Notes under the pieces: generated by a model | Told to the model about the DNA's origin: nothing | Databases searched by the model: none | What the model saw: the letters and a program-made list of their open reading frames with translations, nothing else | In this document: piece after piece, positions 19,167-29,698 of the stretch | How the letters are laid out: each line of letters begins with the position of its first letter | How positions within the stretch are numbered: the stretch's first letter is position 1 | Translations under genes and position numbers: made by a program | Assembly (NCBI GenBank): GCA_025060455.1 | Contig: JANXBY010000075.1 | Location: forward strand, 1 to 64,000 | Direction: 5' to 3' | DNA: 64,000 nucleotides | Origin: Armatimonadota bacterium | GTDB lineage: Bacteria; Sysuimicrobiota; Sysuimicrobiia; Sysuimicrobiales; Sysuimicrobiaceae

Positions 19167-19513
19167 CGCGCGTCCTCCTGGAGGGCTTCGCGCACGCGGG
19201 CCAGCTTGGGCCGGCGCAGCCTCCGCCAGCCCCACACCCCCACCCCCGCACCCCCGGCTACCACCGCGCACCAGCTCACCAGCCCGGCAGCCCAGGCAGG
19301 CAGCCACTGAGACAGCACCAGCGCCGCCAGCACCGGCAGGAACAGCAGGGCACCTGCCACGGCTGCGGCGCCGGCTAACAGCCCGGCGCCTCCCCGCACC
19401 ACGTCCTGCAGGGCTTCCCGGCCCTCCAGCCGTGCTAGTTCCACGTGGGCCCGCAGGAGGTGCGCGAGATCCTCGGCCAGCCCTTCCCAGCTGTCCCGGC
19501 TGGAAGGCTCCAC
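19103..19513 (-). CDS. Phage holin family / DUF1469-like membrane protein
   Basis: DLAHLLRAHVELARLEGREALQDVVRGGAGLLAGAAAVAGALLFLPVLAALVL. Confidence 0.7.
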   Translation of the reverse strand: MEPSSRDSWEGLAEDLAHLLRAHVELARLEGREALQDVVRGGAGLLAGAAAVAGALLFLPVLAALVLSQWLPAWAAGLVSWCAVVAGGAGVGVWGWRRLRRPKLARVREALQEDARWIRELTASVRSSGRPGSGSP

Positions 19514-20094
19514 TACAGCACCCCGTGGGCGGTCACGATGGCCCGGGCGATCTCCACCAGCTTCTTGTTCTCCTTCTGGCTTTGGACCTGCATCCGGCGG
19601 AACGCCTCCGCCTCGCTGATCCCCAACCGTTTCATGAGGATGCCCTTCGCCCGCTCGATGAGCTTCCGCGCCTCCAGGGCCTCCCGGAGGTCAGCCACCT
19701 CCTTCTGGAGGATCCGGAACTCCTCGAACCGTGCCCGGGCCAGCAGGATGGTGGGAAGCAGGTCCTCCTCGCTGACCGGCTTGACCAGGTACGCGAAGAC
19801 GCCTGCCTCCGTGGCGCGCTCCACCAGCTCCGGCTCGCTGTAGGCGGTCAGCAGGATCACAGGGATGGGCCGGCGGGCGGTGATCTCTCGGGCCGCGGTG
19901 ATGCCGTCCAGCTCCGGCATCTTGATGTCGAGGATGGCCAGGTCCGGCTGGTGGCGCTCGGCCAGCTCCACCGCCTCCCGGCCGTTGGTGGCCTCCGCCA
20001 CCACCTCGAACCCCAGCGACCGCAGCTGGGTCCTCAAGGTCATGACGCGGATGGCCTCGTCGTCCGCGATGAGGATGCGCAGGCGGTCCTTCAC
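19513..20094 (-). CDS. ANTAR-domain response regulator
   Basis: REC domain (ILIADDEAIRVMTLRTQLRSLGFEVV...DLAILDIKMPELDGI) followed by KLIERAKGILMKRLGISEAEAFRRMQVQSQKENKKLVEIARAIV. Confidence 0.92.
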   Translation of the reverse strand: MKDRLRILIADDEAIRVMTLRTQLRSLGFEVVAEATNGREAVELAERHQPDLAILDIKMPELDGITAAREITARRPIPVILLTAYSEPELVERATEAGVFAYLVKPVSEEDLLPTILLARARFEEFRILQKEVADLREALEARKLIERAKGILMKRLGISEAEAFRRMQVQSQKENKKLVEIARAIVTAHGVL

Positions 20095-21299
20095 GCGCTC
20101 ACCTCCCCGGCCGGCTGTGCTGACCCCTCGCCCGCCCCGGCCGCGGGCACAGCAAACCGGACCTCTGCCACGGTGCCCCCCTCCGACCACAGCCGGAAGG
20201 TGCCCCTCAGGTCCCGGCCCACCAGATCCTGAACGATGCGCAGGCCCAGGTGGCCGTGCCGGTCCACGGAGAACCCTGGCGGCAGCCCCACGCCGTCGTC
20301 CCGGACCTGCACCCACACCTCCTGCCCCTGCTGGCCCAGCTGCACGCTCACCCGGCCCCGGCCATCGGGGAACGCGTGCTCCAGGGCGTTGTGGACCAGC
20401 TCGCTCAGCACCAGGGCGAGGGCGGTGGCGTGCTTGCTGGGCAGCCACACCTCGGGACCGCGCACCTCCACCCGCACCGCCCGGCCCGCCCGCGCCAGGT
20501 CGCGGCCGATGGTCTCCCCGATCCGCTCCGCCAGCCGGCGGACTTCCACCGCCTCGATGCGGTCCGCGGACAGCATCTGGTGAACCGCAGCGATGCTCTT
20601 CACCCGCGCGATGCTGTCCAGCAGGCTCTTGCGGGCGGGGCCTTCCGCGTCCACGGTCTCCAGGTACAGGAGGTCCGCCAGGGTCTGGAGGTTGTTCTTG
20701 ATCCGGTGGTGCATCTCCCGGAGCAGGGTCCGGAGCTTCTCGTTGCTCTCCTCCAGGTCCTGCTGCTTCTGGCGGATCACCCGGTCCCGGGCCTCCAGGT
20801 ACGCCTGGCCGATGGCCAGCATCTGCAGGTCGATGGCCTCGTGCACCCGCTCCGTGGCCAGCATCACGTCGGGTGGGAAGGCCACCCACAGCCGCCGGCT
20901 CAACATCACCTGCACCTGGGTGGACAGGCTGCTGCGCAGCAGGCTCAGGGCCTGCAGGATCTCTTCCAGGCTGAAGCCCAGCTCCAGCTGCTCGGTGGCC
21001 ACCCGGTGGGCATGTTCGAACACCCGGTCCCGCGCGTGCAGGTGTTCCGCCTCGTCCCCGGCCCGCATCACCTGGACCAGCAGGTCCACCGTCTGTCGGC
21101 CCCACCGGTCACACAAGGCAGGGTGCTCCGCGTACCGCGCCACCCGGCGGTGCAGGGAGGCCCTCCACCTCCCCACCACCTCCTCCCGGTGCTCCTCCAG
21201 GTGCCGGGAGGTGGTGGCCACCGCGAAGCACACCATGGCCGACCGCACCCGTAACAGGGGGGCGTACAACCCGACCAGCCAGCGTCGCACCGCCTCCAC
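20091..21299 (-). CDS. Sensor histidine kinase, HisKA_2/HWE-like type
   Basis: REMHHRIKNNLQTLADLLYLE phosphoacceptor motif; C-terminal HATPase; 4-nt overlap with the ANTAR regulator. Confidence 0.9.
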   Translation of the reverse strand: MEAVRRWLVGLYAPLLRVRSAMVCFAVATTSRHLEEHREEVVGRWRASLHRRVARYAEHPALCDRWGRQTVDLLVQVMRAGDEAEHLHARDRVFEHAHRVATEQLELGFSLEEILQALSLLRSSLSTQVQVMLSRRLWVAFPPDVMLATERVHEAIDLQMLAIGQAYLEARDRVIRQKQQDLEESNEKLRTLLREMHHRIKNNLQTLADLLYLETVDAEGPARKSLLDSIARVKSIAAVHQMLSADRIEAVEVRRLAERIGETIGRDLARAGRAVRVEVRGPEVWLPSKHATALALVLSELVHNALEHAFPDGRGRVSVQLGQQGQEVWVQVRDDGVGLPPGFSVDRHGHLGLRIVQDLVGRDLRGTFRLWSEGGTVAEVRFAVPAAGAGEGSAQPAGEVSA

Positions 21300-21359: not shown

Positions 21360-22340
21360 TCAGTGGCGCCGGGACACCACGAACTCCGTGAGGGCGGCCA
21401 GGCTGTCCCGCTCCGGCCCGGGAGGTAGGGTGTCCAGCAGCTGGAGGGCCCGGTGCGCGTGCTGCCGCGCCACCTCCAGGGCGTAGGCCAAAGACCCAGA
21501 GGCCTCCAGGGCTTGCCGCAGGGGCTCGAGATCCCCTGAGCGGATCCACGCCTCCAGCCGCCGGCGCCCTGCTTCGTCCGCGGTCCGCAGGGCGTGGATC
21601 AACGGCAGCGTGACCTTGCCGCCGCGTACGTCGCTGCCGATGGGCTTGCCGAGGACTTCCGGGTCGCTGGTGAGGTCGAGGGTGTCGTCGGTGATCTGGA
21701 ACGCCACGCCCCAGTGAAGCCCGAACGCTCCCAGCCGCTCCACCAGCTCGCCCTCCGCCCCGCCCACCAGGGCACCCCCGGCGCACGCGGACGACACCAG
21801 CTGCGCGGTCTTGCCCTCCACGATGGCGAAGTAGATGGACTCGTCGGTGTGCGGAGTGTTCCCGTACTTGATCTGCAGGAGCTCCGCCTGGCTCATGCGC
21901 ACGGTGGCGAACGCCACCCGGCTGGCCACGTCGTCCCGGCCCGTACGGGAGAGCAGGTGGAACGCCTTGCTGAACAGGTAGTCTCCGAGCAACACCGCCA
22001 CGTGGTTGCCCCACCGGGCATTGGGGGTGGCGTGTCCCCGCCGGCGATCCGCCTCGTCGATGACGTCGTCGTGGATCAGGCTGGCCACGTGGATGAGCTC
22101 CACCGCGGCGGCCAGCAGGTCCCGGTGCGCTCCGCCTCCTCCGGCAACCCGGGCGCACAGGAACGCCAGGGCCGGGCGCACCATCTTCCCCCGGGTCTGC
22201 AGCACGTGCGACACCAACTCCATCAGGAAGGGGTCGTGGGCAGCCAGCTCCTGGTGCAGGAGGTGCTGGAGGCGGTCCAGGTCCTCCCGTACGGGAGCAT
22301 ACGCGGAGGCCAAGGCCGCGTCCGCGGCCACCAAGGTCAT
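21360..22340 (-). CDS. Polyprenyl synthetase family protein
   Basis: LIHVASLIHDDVIDEADRRRGHATPNARWGNHVAVLLGDYLFSKAF; GVAFQITDDTLDLTSDPEVLGKPIGSDVRGGKVTLPLI. Confidence 0.95.
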   Translation of the reverse strand: MTLVAADAALASAYAPVREDLDRLQHLLHQELAAHDPFLMELVSHVLQTRGKMVRPALAFLCARVAGGGGAHRDLLAAAVELIHVASLIHDDVIDEADRRRGHATPNARWGNHVAVLLGDYLFSKAFHLLSRTGRDDVASRVAFATVRMSQAELLQIKYGNTPHTDESIYFAIVEGKTAQLVSSACAGGALVGGAEGELVERLGAFGLHWGVAFQITDDTLDLTSDPEVLGKPIGSDVRGGKVTLPLIHALRTADEAGRRRLEAWIRSGDLEPLRQALEASGSLAYALEVARQHAHRALQLLDTLPPGPERDSLAALTEFVVSRRH

Positions 22341-22882
22341 GGTCGCCGGCCCAGTCGCCGCACGTACTCCACCAGCGCCCAGATCTGGTCGTCGGGCAGC
22401 TGGCCGAACGCCGGCATCCCGCTCCGCCGGGCGGTGTTTGCGAGGCCGTTCTTGATCACCCAGTGGGTCGCACCTACGGGCATGCGCTCGTGGAAGGCCC
22501 GGTAGTGGAAGTTGAACGGCTTGGGGTTGAGGGCGGCTCCCGCGGGTCCGTCTCCGCGCCCTTCAGGCCCGTGGCACACCGCGCACAAGGTGTCGTACTG
22601 CGTCTTAGCCTGCGCCAGCATGGCGTCGGTGACCGGCCGCGGAGGTTGGTCGTCCCGGGCCTCCTCGGGCACCACCTCGAGGATGGCCAGGACGACCTCC
22701 GACCCGTCCGGAGCTGCCGCAGTGCCCACGGACACGCCCTCCACGTTCCGGGCCACCAGCTGCACCTCCGGCTGCACCAGCCCGCCCGCCACGAACAGGT
22801 AAACCAGCGCCCACACGGGGAGCAGCACGTACAATGCCAGCAACCAACGGGAGGGCCGGACGGACGTGGTTTCTTCGGCCAT
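22337..22882 (-). CDS. Membrane-anchored monoheme cytochrome c
   Basis: N-terminal TM (LLALYVLLPVWALVYLFVAGGL), CAVCH, GMPAFGQLPDDQIWALVEYVRRL. Confidence 0.88.
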   Translation of the reverse strand: MAEETTSVRPSRWLLALYVLLPVWALVYLFVAGGLVQPEVQLVARNVEGVSVGTAAAPDGSEVVLAILEVVPEEARDDQPPRPVTDAMLAQAKTQYDTLCAVCHGPEGRGDGPAGAALNPKPFNFHYRAFHERMPVGATHWVIKNGLANTARRSGMPAFGQLPDDQIWALVEYVRRLGRRP

Positions 22883-22890
22883 AGCGCCTC

Positions 22891-23352
22891 CTACCGCAGC
22901 GTGAGCAGGTATGCCACCAGGTCAGCCACCTCCGCCTCGGACAGGTACCGGTAAGGCGGCATCCCCCCCTTTCCGGAGCGGAGCAGCGTTCGCAGGTCCT
23001 GCGCGGAGGTCCGGGCCGCAACGTGGGTCAGGTCCGGGCCAAGGCGCAACCGGCCCACCAGTGCCGGGTCTTGGCCCGCGTACTGAGCCGGGGAGGAAGC
23101 TTCCCCGATGTCGCCCGCGCCCCGCACCATTCCGAAGCGGGCCTCTACCGCCCGGACTTCCTGCGTGTGGCAGACCGCGCACCCTTCCCGCACGTACACC
23201 CACCGACCCCGCGCGGCTTGGTGCGACAGCGGGGTCGCCCGGGCAGCACGCACCGCGGGATCCAGGGCCGGGAGCAGCACCGAGGCCACGAACCCGCACA
23301 GCACCGCAGCGGTCACCAGCCTCACCACAGCGCCCACGGAGTCCTTCAACAA
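22891..23352 (-). CDS. CcoO-like (cbb3 oxidase subunit II-like) monoheme cytochrome c
   Basis: GRWVYVREGCAVCHTQEVRAVEARFG...LGPDLTHVAARTS matches the CcoO pattern YVREGCYNCHSQ...RTGPDL. Confidence 0.8.
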   Translation of the reverse strand: MLKDSVGAVVRLVTAAVLCGFVASVLLPALDPAVRAARATPLSHQAARGRWVYVREGCAVCHTQEVRAVEARFGMVRGAGDIGEASSPAQYAGQDPALVGRLRLGPDLTHVAARTSAQDLRTLLRSGKGGMPPYRYLSEAEVADLVAYLLTLR

Positions 23353-23379: not shown

Positions 23380-24774
23380 CTAGGAACCCGCCACCGCGGC
23401 CAGCTCCTGCTCCGCGGCAGGCACCGGCTGCCCGGAGTCCGCCGTCAGGAAGACGTTCCACCCGAACACCGCGTGCCCCATCCACGCGGCCAGCAGCCCC
23501 GTGAAGCTCAGCGCCACGAGCGGCCGGACGGCCTGCAGTGCGTGCGCGAAGGGGACGGTGCCCGTGGCCCACACCGCCCCCTGGCTCAGGCCTGCCACCA
23601 TCAGGGAGCTCACCGCCAATGTCCACCCGGCCACACCCAACCACAGGTGCCGCCAGGCCAGCCCCCGGCTGGCCAGCGCCCGTCCCAGGGCGTGGGGCAG
23701 GAGGAGGTACGCGCAGCCCACAGCCACCGCACCGCAACCCCCGACGAGCAGGAGGCGCACCGCCTCCTCCCAAAGGGACATGGACACCATCCGGCTTGGA
23801 CCCGCCAGGGACGCCACCGCCTGCGCAACTACACCTCCGAGCAACGCCAGCCACCCGGCCACGGTGAACGCCACGCCCGGGTGGTCTCCGAGGATGCGCC
23901 ACTGCCCCTCCAGGGAGCGCACCGCGCCCGTGACCAGGGTGGCCACGGGCAAGACCAGCAGGCCGCACGCCACCGCTCCTACCGTCTGAACCCAGAAGGG
24001 GACCGGACCCCACACGAACTGCCCGGGCCCCGCGAGGGCCCCGAAGCTGGCGAGCCCGACCACCGCGGCAAATCCCAGCCCCTGCGACAGCCCTGGCCTC
24101 CCCGTCAGCGCCGACAGCACATACAGGGTCACCCCCCCTGCCACGGGGACCGCCCACAGCCACAACAGCCCCGCCTGCAGGAAGGCCTGGCTCAGGGCGT
24201 CCAGCACCCCGGAGTAGGGATTGTCGAAGGGCCAGAACAGCCCCTTCCCCAGGACCAGGACCAAGGGCAGCCCCGCGAAGCCTGAGGCCACCAGGGCCAG
24301 GGCGGGGTCCCTGCGAGGCGCCCGCGCGAGGGTGCTCCGGACTACCCAGTACAGGAGCAGCGCACCCGCCAGCCGCAACAGGTCCACGGGCCAGGGGGCT
24401 TCAGCGAACAGGCGGCCCCGCGTCCAGCCCGCGGAAAGCCACCACCAGCTCAAGAGCTGGGCGGCGGTCCACAGCCACAGGGCCAGGTTGGCGAGCGGCT
24501 CGCTCCACAGCCCCTCCCGGTCGCCCTGACCCACCACGCGCAGCGCCGTCCCCACCAGGAGGTGGGACAACAGGCCGAACACCCACAGGTCGGCGGCCAC
24601 GGCCACCACCCGGCCGTGGGACGCCCACGGGAGGTCCGCCAACAGCGACGGCCACGCCCTCTGCGCCGCCACAAGCCCTTCGTACGCCAGGGCCAAGACT
24701 CCCCACACGGTCCCCGCGTACAGGAACCTCCGCACGGAGCTCCACCGCTCGTCGGTGAACATCCACGCCAGCAC
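23380..24774 (-). CDS. CcoN-like (cbb3 oxidase subunit I homologue) integral membrane protein apparently lacking heme/CuB ligands
   Basis: GTG 24774 or ATG 24762. CcoN-like C-terminal landmarks: YLLLPHALGRALASRGLAWRHLWLGVAGWTLAVSSLMVAGLSQGAVW and VRPLVALSFTGLLAAWMGHAVFGWNVF. No HH pair and no HVH motif. Confidence 0.75.
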   Translation of the reverse strand: MLAWMFTDERWSSVRRFLYAGTVWGVLALAYEGLVAAQRAWPSLLADLPWASHGRVVAVAADLWVFGLLSHLLVGTALRVVGQGDREGLWSEPLANLALWLWTAAQLLSWWWLSAGWTRGRLFAEAPWPVDLLRLAGALLLYWVVRSTLARAPRRDPALALVASGFAGLPLVLVLGKGLFWPFDNPYSGVLDALSQAFLQAGLLWLWAVPVAGGVTLYVLSALTGRPGLSQGLGFAAVVGLASFGALAGPGQFVWGPVPFWVQTVGAVACGLLVLPVATLVTGAVRSLEGQWRILGDHPGVAFTVAGWLALLGGVVAQAVASLAGPSRMVSMSLWEEAVRLLLVGGCGAVAVGCAYLLLPHALGRALASRGLAWRHLWLGVAGWTLAVSSLMVAGLSQGAVWATGTVPFAHALQAVRPLVALSFTGLLAAWMGHAVFGWNVFLTADSGQPVPAAEQELAAVAGS

Positions 24775-24797: not shown

Positions 24798-24914
24798 TCA
24801 GGCCTCCGCCACCAGGCCGAAGGCCGCCACGAACAGCAACAGCGCGAAAAACAGCAGGTAAAACAGGGCGTACCACAGGTAGGTCTTCCACCGTCGGGGG
24901 CCGAACCGGGTCAC
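24798..24914 (-). CDS. Tiny single-TM protein (38 aa)
   Basis: GTG overlapping the mvhD-like stop (GTGA); MTRFGPRRWKTYLWYALFYLLFFALLLFVAAFGLVAEA*. Confidence 0.55.
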   Translation of the reverse strand: MTRFGPRRWKTYLWYALFYLLFFALLLFVAAFGLVAEA

Positions 24915-25330
24915 TGTTTCCCTCCAGATCCGCGCAGCCGGTCCACGAAGTCCGCCACCGCTTGGAGGAACTGCTCCCGCTCGTGCAGCCCGTACGCGAA
25001 GAAGGCAATCCGCTCAGGGTCCACCTTCTGCCGGCTCAACCGCTTGCGGAGCTGGTCGATGCGGTCTTCCATGATCCAGTTGCCCTCCCGGTTCAGGCAG
25101 TCGCCCATGGGGCAGCCACACACGAAGGCGCCTGCGGCGCCACTGCGCAGGGCCAGCTCCAACCACCCCGGCTTCACGAACCCCGAGCACGGCACCCGGA
25201 TCACGGTCACGTGGGGCATCCCCACCACGGTGTCGTCCGGGTTCAAAAGCCCCTCACTGCGCACCGCCCAGTCGCACAGGAACCCCACCACCCGGGGCTG
25301 CGTTTCCATCCGCTCCGGTGCTGCCGCCAT
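24911..25330 (-). CDS. MvhD-like hydrogenase iron-sulfur (delta) subunit family protein
   Basis: VVGFLCDWAV...VTVIRVPCSGFVKPGWLELALRSGAAGAFVCGCPMGDCLNREGNW. Confidence 0.9.
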   Translation of the reverse strand: MAAAPERMETQPRVVGFLCDWAVRSEGLLNPDDTVVGMPHVTVIRVPCSGFVKPGWLELALRSGAAGAFVCGCPMGDCLNREGNWIMEDRIDQLRKRLSRQKVDPERIAFFAYGLHEREQFLQAVADFVDRLRGSGGKQ

Positions 25331-25339
25331 GGCTCCTCC

Positions 25340-26515
25340 TCACGAGGCCACAGGGGCCGCGGCCCCTGCGCCCCGCCGGATCCGCTGCTGCACGTCCTTG
25401 TCCAGCATCCTCGGCAACTCCAGGGCCTCGAACGGGCAGGCGCCGATACAGATCCCGCACTCCACGCACCGGGAGTCCACCACCACCGCCAGGAGCTTTC
25501 GGTTGGCCGCCGCCCGGCTCTTTCCCGGGTAGGGGCTCGGCACCATGTAAATGGCGTTGTACGGGCAGTCGTAGTAGCACAGCTCGCAGCCCGTGCAGTT
25601 CTCCTCCACCACCACCGCCTGGCCCAGGGCTCGCAGCCCCCGCTGTTCGGGGGTCTCCCGCAGGGTGTAGGGGATGACCATGCCATACACCACCAGCGCC
25701 ACCACCAGGGCCAGGGCCCAGCCCGGGGCTGTCCACCGGGCCAGCACGTACGGCCACAGGAAGAACCAGTCCACCTGGAACCCTTCTGGGGACGCCCCCG
25801 GCTGCGCGGGCGGGCCGCTGGCGGCCGGGAGCGCACTGGCCAGGATGAACAGGAGCCCCAGGCTGAACAGCACCCACACCGCGGGCGGCCAGATCTTGGG
25901 GTGGCGCAGGCGCACGTAGTGCCACCACAGGAGCACGTACAGGGTCATGGCGGGACCGATGTGGAGGAACAGAAACCGCGGCAGGGTCGTGTCGCTTACC
26001 CCCGGGCCGCCCAGGAACACCCGTTCCAGCCAGCCGCCGATGAGGGGGACCGACCGCAGGGCCTGAGTGGTGAGGCTGGTGAGCAGCTGCGAGCGCTCGT
26101 CCCACACCAGCAGGTAGCCGGTGAACCCCGCGAACCCGGACACCACCAGCAGGAACATCCCGGACAGCCACTGGCTGTCCCGCGCCTCCCGGTAGCGGTC
26201 GGTGAACCAGTTCCTGAACAGGTGCAGCAGGATGGCCACCAGGTAGGCGTCCGCGGCGTACCGGTGGATCCCGCGGAACACCACTCCGTAGGGCACGTGG
26301 TGGGTGAGGAACTCCACGGAGGCGTACGCGCCCTCCAGGCTGGGCTCGTAGTACAAGAAGATGAGGATCCCGGACACCACGAGGATGGTCAGGAACAGGT
26401 TCGCGAGCCCGCCGGTGTAGTAGAGGGGGTTGAAGTCCTGGGGCAGGACGCGGTTGACCCACGTGTCCAACCGCAGGGTGGCGCTCTGCAGGGCCAACAG
26501 CAGCCGCCGGTACAC
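25340..26515 (-). CDS. Cytochrome b fused to C-terminal 2x[4Fe-4S] ferredoxin domain
   Basis: Heme b ligand pairs GIHRYAADAYLVAILLHLF and LFLHIGPAMTLYVLLWWHY; CTGCELCYYDCP and CVECGICIGACP motifs. Confidence 0.92.
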   Translation of the reverse strand: MYRRLLLALQSATLRLDTWVNRVLPQDFNPLYYTGGLANLFLTILVVSGILIFLYYEPSLEGAYASVEFLTHHVPYGVVFRGIHRYAADAYLVAILLHLFRNWFTDRYREARDSQWLSGMFLLVVSGFAGFTGYLLVWDERSQLLTSLTTQALRSVPLIGGWLERVFLGGPGVSDTTLPRFLFLHIGPAMTLYVLLWWHYVRLRHPKIWPPAVWVLFSLGLLFILASALPAASGPPAQPGASPEGFQVDWFFLWPYVLARWTAPGWALALVVALVVYGMVIPYTLRETPEQRGLRALGQAVVVEENCTGCELCYYDCPYNAIYMVPSPYPGKSRAAANRKLLAVVVDSRCVECGICIGACPFEALELPRMLDKDVQQRIRRGAGAAAPVAS

Positions 26516-26516
26516 C

Positions 26517-26717
26517 CTACTCCTCCGCGGTCAGGCGCGCCTTCCGGAACAGCACCACGATGGCCGCGTACAGCACCAGCAACACCCCCATGGCCCCGGA
26601 GGCCACCAGGCGCCGGTCGAACCACTCGCCGTACACCATCAGCGCCACGCACGCCAGGGCCAGCACCGCCAGGAACCCGGCCAGCGCCACATACCAGCTG
26701 CTGCGATCCTCGGTCAC
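26517..26717 (-). CDS. Small two-TM membrane protein (66 aa) in respiratory operon
   Basis: GTG 26717; VTEDRSSWYVALAGFLAVLALACVALMVYGEWFDRRLVASGAMGVLLVLYAAIVVLFRKARLTAEE; overlaps the neighbouring gene end. Confidence 0.6.
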   Translation of the reverse strand: MTEDRSSWYVALAGFLAVLALACVALMVYGEWFDRRLVASGAMGVLLVLYAAIVVLFRKARLTAEE

Positions 26718-26983
26718 GGCCGCCTCCCTCCTCGCTGGGCCGCCAGCCAGCGGTCGTACGCGCGCACGGGCCTGCGCACCCGGCCGGCCTGCCGATCCGC
26801 GGCGTACAGGAGGTAGCCCGCCCACGCCACGGCGCCGGCCAGCACCGCCAGCCAGGCCGCGACCACCGCCCACCGCGCGGGCTCGGGGTCAGCCCAGGCC
26901 AGCCGTGCCCCCTGCCAGGCGCCGTGGAATCCTACCACCGCCAGGGCGAAGGCCAGCCAGAAGCGCACCACCAACGTCTTCAC
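26714..26983 (-). CDS. Small two-TM membrane protein (89 aa) in respiratory operon
   Basis: GTG 26983 overlapping the cytochrome b stop; VKTLVVRFWLAFALAVVGFHGAWQGARLAW...AVVAAWLAVLAGAVAWAGYLLYAADR. Confidence 0.6.
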   Translation of the reverse strand: MKTLVVRFWLAFALAVVGFHGAWQGARLAWADPEPARWAVVAAWLAVLAGAVAWAGYLLYAADRQAGRVRRPVRAYDRWLAAQRGGRRP

Positions 26984-28128
26984 CCCGCCGCCGCCCGGGC
27001 CGGCGCCGCCCGCGGCGCCGGGGCCGGAGCAGCGGCCTCCGCCAGCTTCCTGCGCCGCCGGTACCGGAACTCCAGCACCAGGCCCAGGGCCAGGGTGGCC
27101 GCGGTGACCAGCAGCACCACGTGCGGGTCGCGCCCGATCACCGCGATGTTGAACATGATGAGGGCGGTGAACACCAGGAAGTACACCAGGGCCATGACCC
27201 CCACCACGGTGAAGAAGGGGCGTTCTGCCGGCCGGCGGCCCTTGCTCCGGTCCAGGAAGGGCACCAGCATGCCGTACGCGATCAGCAGCCCGGGCCCCAG
27301 GCCTGCCCACAGGGGCGGCGTGTACTTCACGTACTGGTACAGGGCCAGGAAGTACCAGTCGGAGAGGATCGGAAGGGGCGTACGGTTGGGGTCCGCCCGG
27401 CGCCCCATCTCCGCAGGGAACACGTAGCTGGTAACCACCAGCATTAGGGTCAACACCACCAGGGCGGTGGGGGACAGCACGAATCGCCGCCGCCGGGTGA
27501 AGTAGAAGTAGATCTCTGCCGCCACCAGCAGCAGGGCGGAGATGCCAAAGTGGATGGCGTAGAACCGGGTCAGGGTGCCCTGACCCTCCGCGGGTCCGCC
27601 CAGGAAGGCGAAGGCGATGGCGCTGCCGAACCGCGTCTGCCCGATCACCGGCAGCTCGTCCAGGTACACGGCCACGGTGAGCACCACCTTCGCGGCCCAG
27701 AAGGCCCGCTGGTTCCAGATCAGCAGGTACCCCGTGAGGCCCGAGATCATGGCCAGCACCAGGGACCCGAACAGGATCATCCACGAGAGTTCGTTGGGCC
27801 GCTTATACTCGCCGAGAAAGTACATGCGGTAGATCCGCAGGGTGATGGCGAGGATGAGCATATCCGCGCCGTACTTGTGCACCCCGCGGATCAGCCAGCC
27901 CAGCGGGACCTCCTTCTGAATCCGCAGGATGGAGTTGTACGCGCCGTGGGTCGTGGGCTCGTACCAGATCATGAGGAGAATCCCGCTCACCACCACCGCG
28001 ATCCACGAGAAGTACACGATCTGCCCGAGGATGTAGAGCGGGTTGTCCTGGCGATCCACCTGCGTCTCGTCGAACAGGTCCAGCTTCTCCTTGCGCTCCC
28101 GGAACCACTCCCGCAAGCGGTCCCACAT
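26980..28128 (-). CDS. Cytochrome b (b6/bc-type), apparently single-b-heme variant
   Basis: LIRGVHKYGADMLILAITLRIYRMYFLGEYKRPNELSW; LTRFYAIHFGISALLLVAAEIYFYF; SDWYFLALYQ in place of PEWY. Confidence 0.9.
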   Translation of the reverse strand: MWDRLREWFRERKEKLDLFDETQVDRQDNPLYILGQIVYFSWIAVVVSGILLMIWYEPTTHGAYNSILRIQKEVPLGWLIRGVHKYGADMLILAITLRIYRMYFLGEYKRPNELSWMILFGSLVLAMISGLTGYLLIWNQRAFWAAKVVLTVAVYLDELPVIGQTRFGSAIAFAFLGGPAEGQGTLTRFYAIHFGISALLLVAAEIYFYFTRRRRFVLSPTALVVLTLMLVVTSYVFPAEMGRRADPNRTPLPILSDWYFLALYQYVKYTPPLWAGLGPGLLIAYGMLVPFLDRSKGRRPAERPFFTVVGVMALVYFLVFTALIMFNIAVIGRDPHVVLLVTAATLALGLVLEFRYRRRRKLAEAAAPAPAPRAAPARAAAG

Positions 28129-28140
28129 GACCCGTCTCCC

Positions 28141-28785
28141 TCAGGCGATCCCGCCTGGCTCCGCGCCTGTGACCACAATGACGCCGTCCCGGATCTCGTA
28201 GGTGAAGTAGCGGGGCGGCCGGGGCGCAGGTCCTGAGAGCACCCGGCCGGGCTGCTCTCGGTCCGCGGGGTCGTAGATGGAAAGGTGGCACGGGCAGGCC
28301 ATCAGCCCGTGCCGCCGGTCCTCCGGCGGCACGTACCCCCCGTATCCTGCGGTCACCTCCCGCCAGTTCGGCACGTAGTTGAAGATGCAGCCCAGGTGGG
28401 GGCAGATCCGCGAGAAAATGACGACGTCCGTGGGTTCCCGGCCGCCCTTGTAGCCGGGGAAGGCCAGCTTCCAGGGCAGCTTGATGGCCACCCCGGGAAC
28501 CGTGGCCGCTTTCGCCAGCTCGGGGGTGTACTGCGGGTACTTCTGGGTGAACACGAAGAACTTGCTGGACCACGGCTCCCGCAGTTCCTCCAGGGTGGCG
28601 ATGGGCAGCGGTTCGCCCTTGGGCAGGTCGCCCTCCGCTAGATCCGGCGGCACCTTTCCCTGGGGGACCCCCAACCCTGGTTCCAGGTTGGGCTTGAGGT
28701 AGCGCAACACCGGCGCCAGGAACGCGGCCAATCCGCCCAGCACCGGGACTGCGCTCAAAACCTTGAGGAACGCCCGACGGTCCAC
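28141..28785 (-). CDS. Rieske [2Fe-2S] protein
   Basis: Twin-arginine start MDRRAFLKVLSAVPVLGG; ICPHLGCIFNYV and ACPCHLSIYD cluster motifs. Confidence 0.94.
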   Translation of the reverse strand: MDRRAFLKVLSAVPVLGGLAAFLAPVLRYLKPNLEPGLGVPQGKVPPDLAEGDLPKGEPLPIATLEELREPWSSKFFVFTQKYPQYTPELAKAATVPGVAIKLPWKLAFPGYKGGREPTDVVIFSRICPHLGCIFNYVPNWREVTAGYGGYVPPEDRRHGLMACPCHLSIYDPADREQPGRVLSGPAPRPPRYFTYEIRDGVIVVTGAEPGGIA

Positions 28786-28795
28786 CGGTTGCCTC

Positions 28796-29698
28796 CTACC
28801 GCAGGTCCTGGGGCGGCGTGTACACGAACGTCCACAGGTACTCTACCACGGTCCAGATCTGGTCCGGGGACAGCCTGCTTGCGTACGCGGGCATCAGCTC
28901 CACGCCGCGCCGCTGCACCCCCTCCGCGATCTTCTGGTACAGCTCCGTGGGCTTGCGGTAGGCCATCCAGTCGCGGTCGGTGAAGATCCCCGGCCCCACG
29001 CCCCGCGCCCACGTCCACACCTGTTCCCGGATCCGCGCGGCCTCCGGCCCGTTCCCGTCCCCCTGGACCCCGTGGCAACTGGCGCACATCTGGTTGTAGA
29101 TCCTCCGCCCCTGAGCCAACCGCTCGCGGCTGGTGGTCCGGCTCCACTCCCAGAACAGCACGTCCCAAATCTGTTGGTCAGACAACCGCGGCTCCCCCCC
29201 GTCCACCGCTCCGTACGCCGGGTGCTGGAAGCCCGGCATGGCGGTGTGGGGCCGTCCCCGGGCGATGGTCTCGAACAGGGCAAACGGAGCGTTCAGCCGC
29301 ATCTGGTCCAGGTTGTTAAACCGCGCAGGCCGGCTCGGCAGCGGCTCGGACTTCGGGTGGATGCGGAACAGGCTCAAAAAGTCGGTGTAGGGGTTTTTCT
29401 CCGGTGCCGTGAGCTGCTCGGCCATGGAGCCGTCCCCGCGCCCGTCCGGGCCGTGGCAGACCGCGCAGCGTGCGTCGTAGATCTTCTTACCCTCGTCGGC
29501 GTTGGGCTTGCGGGGCATGAAGTTCATGCGCACCGCAAACCCCTCGAGAGGCTGGTACGCCTCCCGCGTGGGGGTGCTGACCCGCACGTACGGCTGACAG
29601 CCCGTCAGGGCCAGCAGGGCCAACGCCAGGAGCAACCCGCCGCGGCCCGCTGGGGGGGACCGCCGGCCACCGAGAGGCCCGGCTCGGCGTCCGCGCAA
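28796..29698 (-). CDS. Diheme cytochrome c lipoprotein
   Basis: Lipobox LALTGC; two CXXCH motifs (CAVCH, CASCH). Likely TTG start with AAGGAGG upstream. Confidence 0.9.
   Translation of the reverse strand: MRGRRAGPLGGRRSPPAGRGGLLLALALLALTGCQPYVRVSTPTREAYQPLEGFAVRMNFMPRKPNADEGKKIYDARCAVCHGPDGRGDGSMAEQLTAPEKNPYTDFLSLFRIHPKSEPLPSRPARFNNLDQMRLNAPFALFETIARGRPHTAMPGFQHPAYGAVDGGEPRLSDQQIWDVLFWEWSRTTSRERLAQGRRIYNQMCASCHGVQGDGNGPEAARIREQVWTWARGVGPGIFTDRDWMAYRKPTELYQKIAEGVQRRGVELMPAYASRLSPDQIWTVVEYLWTFVYTPPQDLR

Follow-up and report, generated by a model that had tools for sequence, protein, structure and literature searches.

Complexes of the bc1/b6f type combine a Rieske protein, a cytochrome b with bL ligands and a Qo loop, a cytochrome c and small membrane subunits. 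Engineered asymmetric mutants have served to study whether electrons cross from one half of complex III to the other; in one such bc1 complex, with G158W and H212N placed in opposite halves, one half has a working Qo site without a bH-side path and the other half is the reverse, and bL-to-bL electron transfer is described as taking place on the catalytic time scale (PMC4330944). MvhD, for its part, is described as an electron-transferring connector (PMC12350162) that feeds HdrA (PMC12350162, PMC9012536), and relatives of FlpD are described as serving bifurcating HdrA complexes (PMC6085437). In Sporomusa ovata, MvhD is reported mostly (75%) in membranes and is proposed to link Hdr-MetVF to the membrane (PMC9430772).

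The window, i.e. the whole 64,000-nucleotide stretch of DNA that we analysed, holds an operon that shares the bc1/b6f components listed above and differs from bc1/b6f in that it encodes two unlike cytochromes b, one of them without bH ligands, in that a ferredoxin and an FlpD are added on the cytoplasmic side, and in that no test run related its small subunits to those of bc1/b6f. In order of transcription, its features are the following.

28796..29698 (-): dihaem cytochrome c (PF00034, E 1.6e-23, two stretches)
28141..28785 (-): Rieske-type iron-sulfur protein (CPHLGC ... CPCH; motif in 31/31 loci)
26980..28128 (-): b1, a b6/subunit-IV-like cytochrome b (PF00033, E 7.7e-30; PF00032)
26714..26983 (-): smA, small membrane protein; ORF overlaps the b1 stop; homologues in 25/37 loci
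26517..26717 (-): smB, small membrane protein; ORF overlaps the smA stop; homologues in 14/37 loci
25340..26515 (-): bFd, cytochrome b with a C-terminal 2x[4Fe-4S] ferredoxin (391 aa, GTG start)
25565..25597 (-): first [4Fe-4S] motif of bFd, CTGCELCYYDC (residues 307-317)
25436..25468 (-): second [4Fe-4S] motif of bFd, CVECGICIGAC (residues 350-360)
24911..25330 (-): FlpD, an FlpD/MvhD-like protein (139 aa, ATG start; invariant Cys 19, 48, 73, 78)
24798..24914 (-): smC, small single-helix membrane protein; overlaps the FlpD stop; homologues in 20/37 loci
23380..24771 (-): CcoN homologue with all six metal ligands lost (PF00115, E 2.4e-25)
22891..23352 (-): CcoO/FixO-like monohaem cytochrome c (PF02433, E 2.9e-12)
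22337..22882 (-): monohaem cytochrome c (PF00034, E 5.1e-11)

Several of these genes overlap start to stop. After the last cytochrome c, the row ends with what we take from its sequence to be a polyprenyl synthase, just past which (19513-21299, minus strand) lie what are presumably a sensor kinase-like ORF and an ANTAR-like response regulator. The dihaem cytochrome c has two CXXCH motifs in 30/31 loci. The Rieske-type protein gave no Pfam match at 1e-3 and matched TIGR01416 at E 1.7e-8, under the model cut-off; the stretch between the two halves of its motif is unusually long for such a protein. Nine proteins were compared with NCBIfam, and no model scored above its cut-off among the matches listed. 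A genome-wide profile search with bFd returned bFd and b1 as the only cytochromes b, the third match being a NuoI-like ferredoxin region; the operon therefore probably encodes the one complex III, and so the sole quinol:cytochrome c reductase, that this bacterium has.

The downstream end recalls cbb3 oxidase clusters, with CcoN- and CcoO-like genes following in 9/37 loci, but the CcoN homologue of the window lacks the metal ligands: alignment to CcoN of 3mk7 and 9g6b places none of the six ligand histidines in it (numbering partly from PMC3578206). Ligand-less CcoN is conserved in the family, and one locus (L043, in G012) keeps the first His and an H207-like His only. The decay of CcoN seems stepwise, since L043 keeps two histidines and the CcoN of G359, a genome of another phylum discussed below, retains its ligands.

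Turning to bFd and FlpD themselves, profile matches identify bFd through PF00033 (E 6.3e-30) plus Fer4 domains, and its nearest solved structure is cytochrome b6 1q90_B (E 5.3e-28). FlpD matches PF02662 across the whole domain (E 2e-24; 86.4 bits vs a cut-off of 22.3), and its nearest solved relative is MvhD of 5odc (E 3e-17). A first-pass annotation of this DNA had proposed that the second cytochrome b of the operon keeps both heme ligand pairs, ends in two [4Fe-4S] motifs and is followed 9 nt later by an MvhD-like gene whose VPCSG and CGCPMGDC cysteines are kept. These proposals hold. H-x13-H occurs twice in bFd (residues 84/98 and 185/199), which gives both heme ligand pairs; the ferredoxin motifs CTGCELCYYDCP and CVECGICIGACP are both found; and the gap is indeed 9 nt, with GGAGGAG preceding the FlpD ATG and FlpD sharing the reading frame of bFd. 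Both cysteine motifs of FlpD are present as well, and the second Cys of the MvhD CxxC is gone (CDWA).

How well is this arrangement kept in Sysuimicrobiota (CSP1-3), the phylum to which the compared genomes probably belong? We compared the window with 36 relatives, one per genome (n=37), mostly from draft assemblies. FlpD lies directly after bFd in 37/37 loci and its start overlaps the upstream stop in 21 of them (a gap value of -229 at L038 is a frame-extension artefact); this adjacency is far beyond chance. The order cytochrome c, Rieske, b1, small transmembrane proteins, bFd, FlpD is kept wherever the contig permits. Full-length bFd is found in 37 of the 43 genomes of the phylum, the matches in G016 and G021 being partial or in two pieces. 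Contig ends cut the module in two genomes (G004, G019) just after b1; true absence was rejected for these two, in which the operon reaches the contig end past b1. Four genomes of one genus (G008-G011) have no bFd, and the same four have no COX1; among bFd-bearing genomes only G031, which is 64% complete, is without a COX1 match. The FlpD family as a whole occurs in 42/43 genomes, some copies being HdrA-linked.

The two cytochromes b of the operon are not equivalent. In bFd, the four histidines are kept in 37/37 loci, as are seven of the eight ferredoxin cysteines, the eighth (C313) being kept in 36/37. In b1, the bL ligands H84 and H193 are found in 36/37 aligned rows; the remaining row is a gap, and 4 rows are misplaced bFd sequences. 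Once those four rows (L041, L043, L049, L056) are omitted from the b1 column counts, and with L062 spanning the second ligand position only, position 98 is R in 32/32 (R98 in the window) and position 207 never holds His, the residues there being F, Y, L, M or W in 33/33 (Y207 in the window). Four apparent histidines at position 98 were rejected, as they are bFd sequences aligned where b1 is cut off. Both bH ligands are thus lost from b1 throughout the readable copies, a loss read from the alignment, and another residue might bind heme. In other words, two bis-His hemes per cytochrome b are provided for in bFd (37/37) and not in b1 (0/32).

The Qo site shows the reverse distribution. PEWY is the Qo motif, and b1 has a PEWY-like Qo ef loop, invariant as SDWYFL (32/32); the loop of bFd is variable, with 13 variants, 34/37 fitting a loose pattern and 3 not, two of these misfits (L049, L052) being shortened proteins for which the wrong stretch was compared. 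With the Qo loop in b1 and both hemes in bFd, Qo function and the cytoplasm-side path seem to be split between the two proteins. AlphaFold models, built for a read-through pair and for a natural fusion, gave the ferredoxin region low confidence (pLDDT 52-63), and Foldseek on the model confirmed the cytochrome bc1 fold and nothing beyond.

Relatives outside the phylum show the same parts in a different arrangement. A scan of genome contigs returned 52 loci, namely 22 of this phylum, 18 near full-length relatives, including MAGs named Deltaproteobacteria, and 12 matching in the ferredoxin part only. Most of the 18 encode cytochrome b, ferredoxin and FlpD as a single chain of ∼500-530 aa (L110 is frameshifted), and 14/14 aligned fusions keep the four histidines, eight ferredoxin cysteines and four FlpD cysteines. 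A 198-genome sample of one outside phylum gave 10 matches passing E 1e-40, 9 with the ferredoxin part. Among 386 genomes drawn around the source, the E 1e-55 threshold is passed by 47; this phylum accounts for 37 of them, and of the 10 from elsewhere, G420 seems to repeat genome G070. Nine of these 10 outside matches are long single chains, with FlpD recognised by tblastn in 8 and not in L197; in the tenth, G359, bFd and FlpD are split as in the window. In that second phylum, represented by four genomes, G359, G594 and G595 carry b1 beside bFd and FlpD; in their b1 the first bH position is R and the second is Y or W. The fourth genome, G495, gave no match.

The fusions commonly adjoin coxB-, coxA- and SCO-like genes, as read from translations. 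For example, in Defluviimonas sp. SAOS-178_SWC the fusion is plasmid-borne, lies beside genes annotated as oxidase subunit I, SCO and heme o synthase, and itself bears no annotation beyond cytochrome b N-terminal domain protein. A recurring set, coxB-coxA-(cyoE)-SCO-[cytochrome b-Fd-FlpD]-small periplasmic protein, is seen in several phyla (L095, L103, L108, L177-L181, L195-L201, L208; L198 excepted). One MAG holds tandem fusion copies (L100, 1366-2880 and 3626-5206), and some fusions (L173-L176, L199-L201) reach ∼680-710 aa, with an extra C-terminal part beyond FlpD.

That a membrane cytochrome b carries an MvhD-like subunit is strongly supported by this conservation across 37 loci and by the covalent fusion in other lineages. 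What, then, would the module do? We think it probable, with confidence a little above even, that the Rieske/cytochrome b complex is asymmetric, with bFd and FlpD forming its half on the cytoplasmic side and Fd-FlpD serving as a port. In this proposal b1 and bFd would pair as one heterodimer; the Qo site of b1 would oxidise quinol and pass one electron through the Rieske protein and cytochrome c to oxidases; the other electron would move from bL of b1 to bL and then bH of bFd; and a soluble redox partner would be joined to bH of bFd by way of the Fd-FlpD tail. The bL-to-bL step would be obligatory in such a heterodimer because the Qo half has no bH.

The relatives also bear on whether the operon might instead encode two separate membrane enzymes, a Rieske-b1 enzyme and a bFd-FlpD enzyme acting as a cytoplasmic donor:quinone reductase. 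Stand-alone b-Fd-FlpD chains do occur in other phyla without b1, and a tree of 63 cytochromes b places the b1 of both phyla with canonical ones and bFd with the fusions (support 98), b1 forming one clade (93) on long branches. A lone b1, however, without bH, would have no evident route for its second electron; bH-less b1 stands beside bFd in 35/35 cases (32 + 3), every b1 copy having been reached via bFd or FlpD; and there is a single Rieske gene in a single operon. We regard two separate enzymes as unlikely. The company of coxB-, coxA- and SCO-like genes, together with a CcmE gene and a CcmC-like gene upstream in the window, would suit yet another role, in which b-Fd-FlpD serves the assembly or reductive activation (copper, heme, thiol) of oxidases or cytochromes c and not the main electron flow. 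In Sysuimicrobiota, however, the module is part of the Rieske operon, where no other partner for the bH-less b1 is visible, and we rate an assembly role as quite unlikely, below the two-enzyme reading.

The Fd-FlpD tail has a counterpart in HdrA2 of methanogens. The tail of the single chain L095 (residues 298-506) is collinear with the end of HdrA2 (residues 572-769, E 2.9e-34), and bFd and FlpD of the window separately match the corresponding parts of HdrA2. Unlike in HdrA2, the cassette is carried here on a membrane cytochrome b and not on a flavin module, and FlpD is without the second Cys of the CxxC, which is A or S in 37/37 loci. The same Cys is present in 0/62 cytochrome-b-linked rows vs 11/12 HdrA-type rows, and the twelfth HdrA-type row, without the counted Cys, starts CCFYC. 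A tree of FlpD gives three groups, with no reliable root and with long branches. Could the loss of this Cys mean that the tail is a vestige without a redox role? We find this very improbable, far more so than the readings above: the ferredoxin cysteines persist at the counts given earlier, no readable locus has lost any of the other four FlpD cysteines (C48 is seen in 36 loci, and the last one reads N there), and the distant fusions retain all twelve. One locus, L050, has a run of N within FlpD. A [2Fe-2S] cluster on the four remaining cysteines of FlpD is plausible.

If electrons do pass through an Fd-FlpD port of the asymmetric complex, in which direction would they move? The direction of electron flow is argued here from thermodynamics, and there is a precedent in the proposal that, in cyclic flow through b6f, each side gives a quinone one electron. 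Entry at the port, in which the quinone of a single Qi site would be reduced by an electron from quinol together with one of cytoplasmic origin, is the more probable direction, at close to an even chance; exit, in which quinol oxidation would push electrons to a low-potential acceptor, is less probable and on its own unlikely, the remainder falling to other roles. We prefer entry because the loci of the single-chain relatives were seen without a Rieske gene, so that quinol could not drive a low-potential acceptor there, and because MvhD is described as a connector that feeds HdrA (PMC12350162, PMC9012536).

An outward bifurcation reading develops the opposite direction: the low-potential electron from the Qo site of b1 would run through bFd and Fd-FlpD to a soluble acceptor, with O2 respiration pulling the other electron. 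The asymmetry would indeed leave bFd as the sole exit for low-potential electrons, all 4 genomes truly without bFd are also without COX1, and the FlpD relatives named at the outset serve HdrA complexes that bifurcate. At the single-chain loci, however, with no Rieske gene seen, Qo bifurcation would be impossible. Additionally, electrons sent to the negative side would move against the membrane potential, a direction that this potential opposes. We consider outward bifurcation improbable. Returning to the asymmetric complex with electron entry, its fullest version, a natural asymmetric complex III with obligatory bL-to-bL transfer, Fd-FlpD wiring and a single Qi fed by quinol and a soluble donor, is possible, though we hold it tentatively and at somewhat less than an even chance.

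Which soluble partner might use the port? The first-pass annotation had predicted that a soluble low-potential partner docks to a membrane cytochrome b through MvhD, and had stated that the window lacks hydrogenase and HdrA genes. The latter is correct, no PF00374 or HdrA match falling within the window; of the prediction, the part that stands firmly is the membrane cytochrome b with its MvhD-like subunit, and that FlpD docks a soluble partner may fairly be inferred from MvhD. HdrA itself fails as the partner, since the source genome gave no match anywhere at E 1e-20 and only 12/43 genomes of the phylum gave one. Several HdrA-FlpD systems occur in some relatives (L067-L070), among them HdrA-like ORFs that are very long (1133 and 1736 aa). 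A NiFe hydrogenase-like large subunit is encoded at G000:C33:20465-21601; the source genome has one further PF00374 match, weak and NuoD-like, on C22. At E 1e-3 the NiFe hydrogenase family is found in 28/43 genomes of the phylum, many of the matches weak. Hydrogenase was rejected as a candidate, a match of the strength of that on C33 being absent from three genus mates and the module present in all four, and it is probably not the FlpD partner. With HdrA absent here and hydrogenase patchy, the usual partners of MvhD do not explain the module. Searches of the 43 genomes for NuoF (40/43, one in the source genome) and for the POR domain (42/43, four in the source genome) found both to be near-universal, and they single out no partner. 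It is COX1 that tracks the module across the phylum, which HdrA, hydrogenase, NuoF and POR do not.

Against the described systems, the comparison can now be made more exactly. The engineered bc1 complex of PMC4330944 was built, whereas the pair described here is natural, is conserved across two phyla and has an added Fd-FlpD port. In Sporomusa ovata, HdrA is present and the membrane partner of MvhD is open (PMC9430772), whereas here FlpD has a cytochrome b as its membrane partner and the genome is without HdrA. In the open-licence literature, covered mostly as titles and abstracts, we found neither an operon that combines a Rieske gene with two differing cytochromes b nor a cytochrome b-Fd-FlpD protein, and in the main text of the paper on the phylum (PMC11604079), the terms cytochrome, Rieske and complex III do not occur.

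If the asymmetric complex is as proposed, a natural and conserved enzyme would seem to need the crossing of electrons between its halves, and inter-half transfer would become directly testable in it. The module would also tie an MvhD-like protein to a definite partner in the membrane, a matter described as open in the acetogen Sporomusa (PMC9430772). Through such a layout, electrons might be exchanged between membrane and cytoplasm, and it would, if true, represent a new meeting point of soluble low-potential electrons and the aerobic chain.
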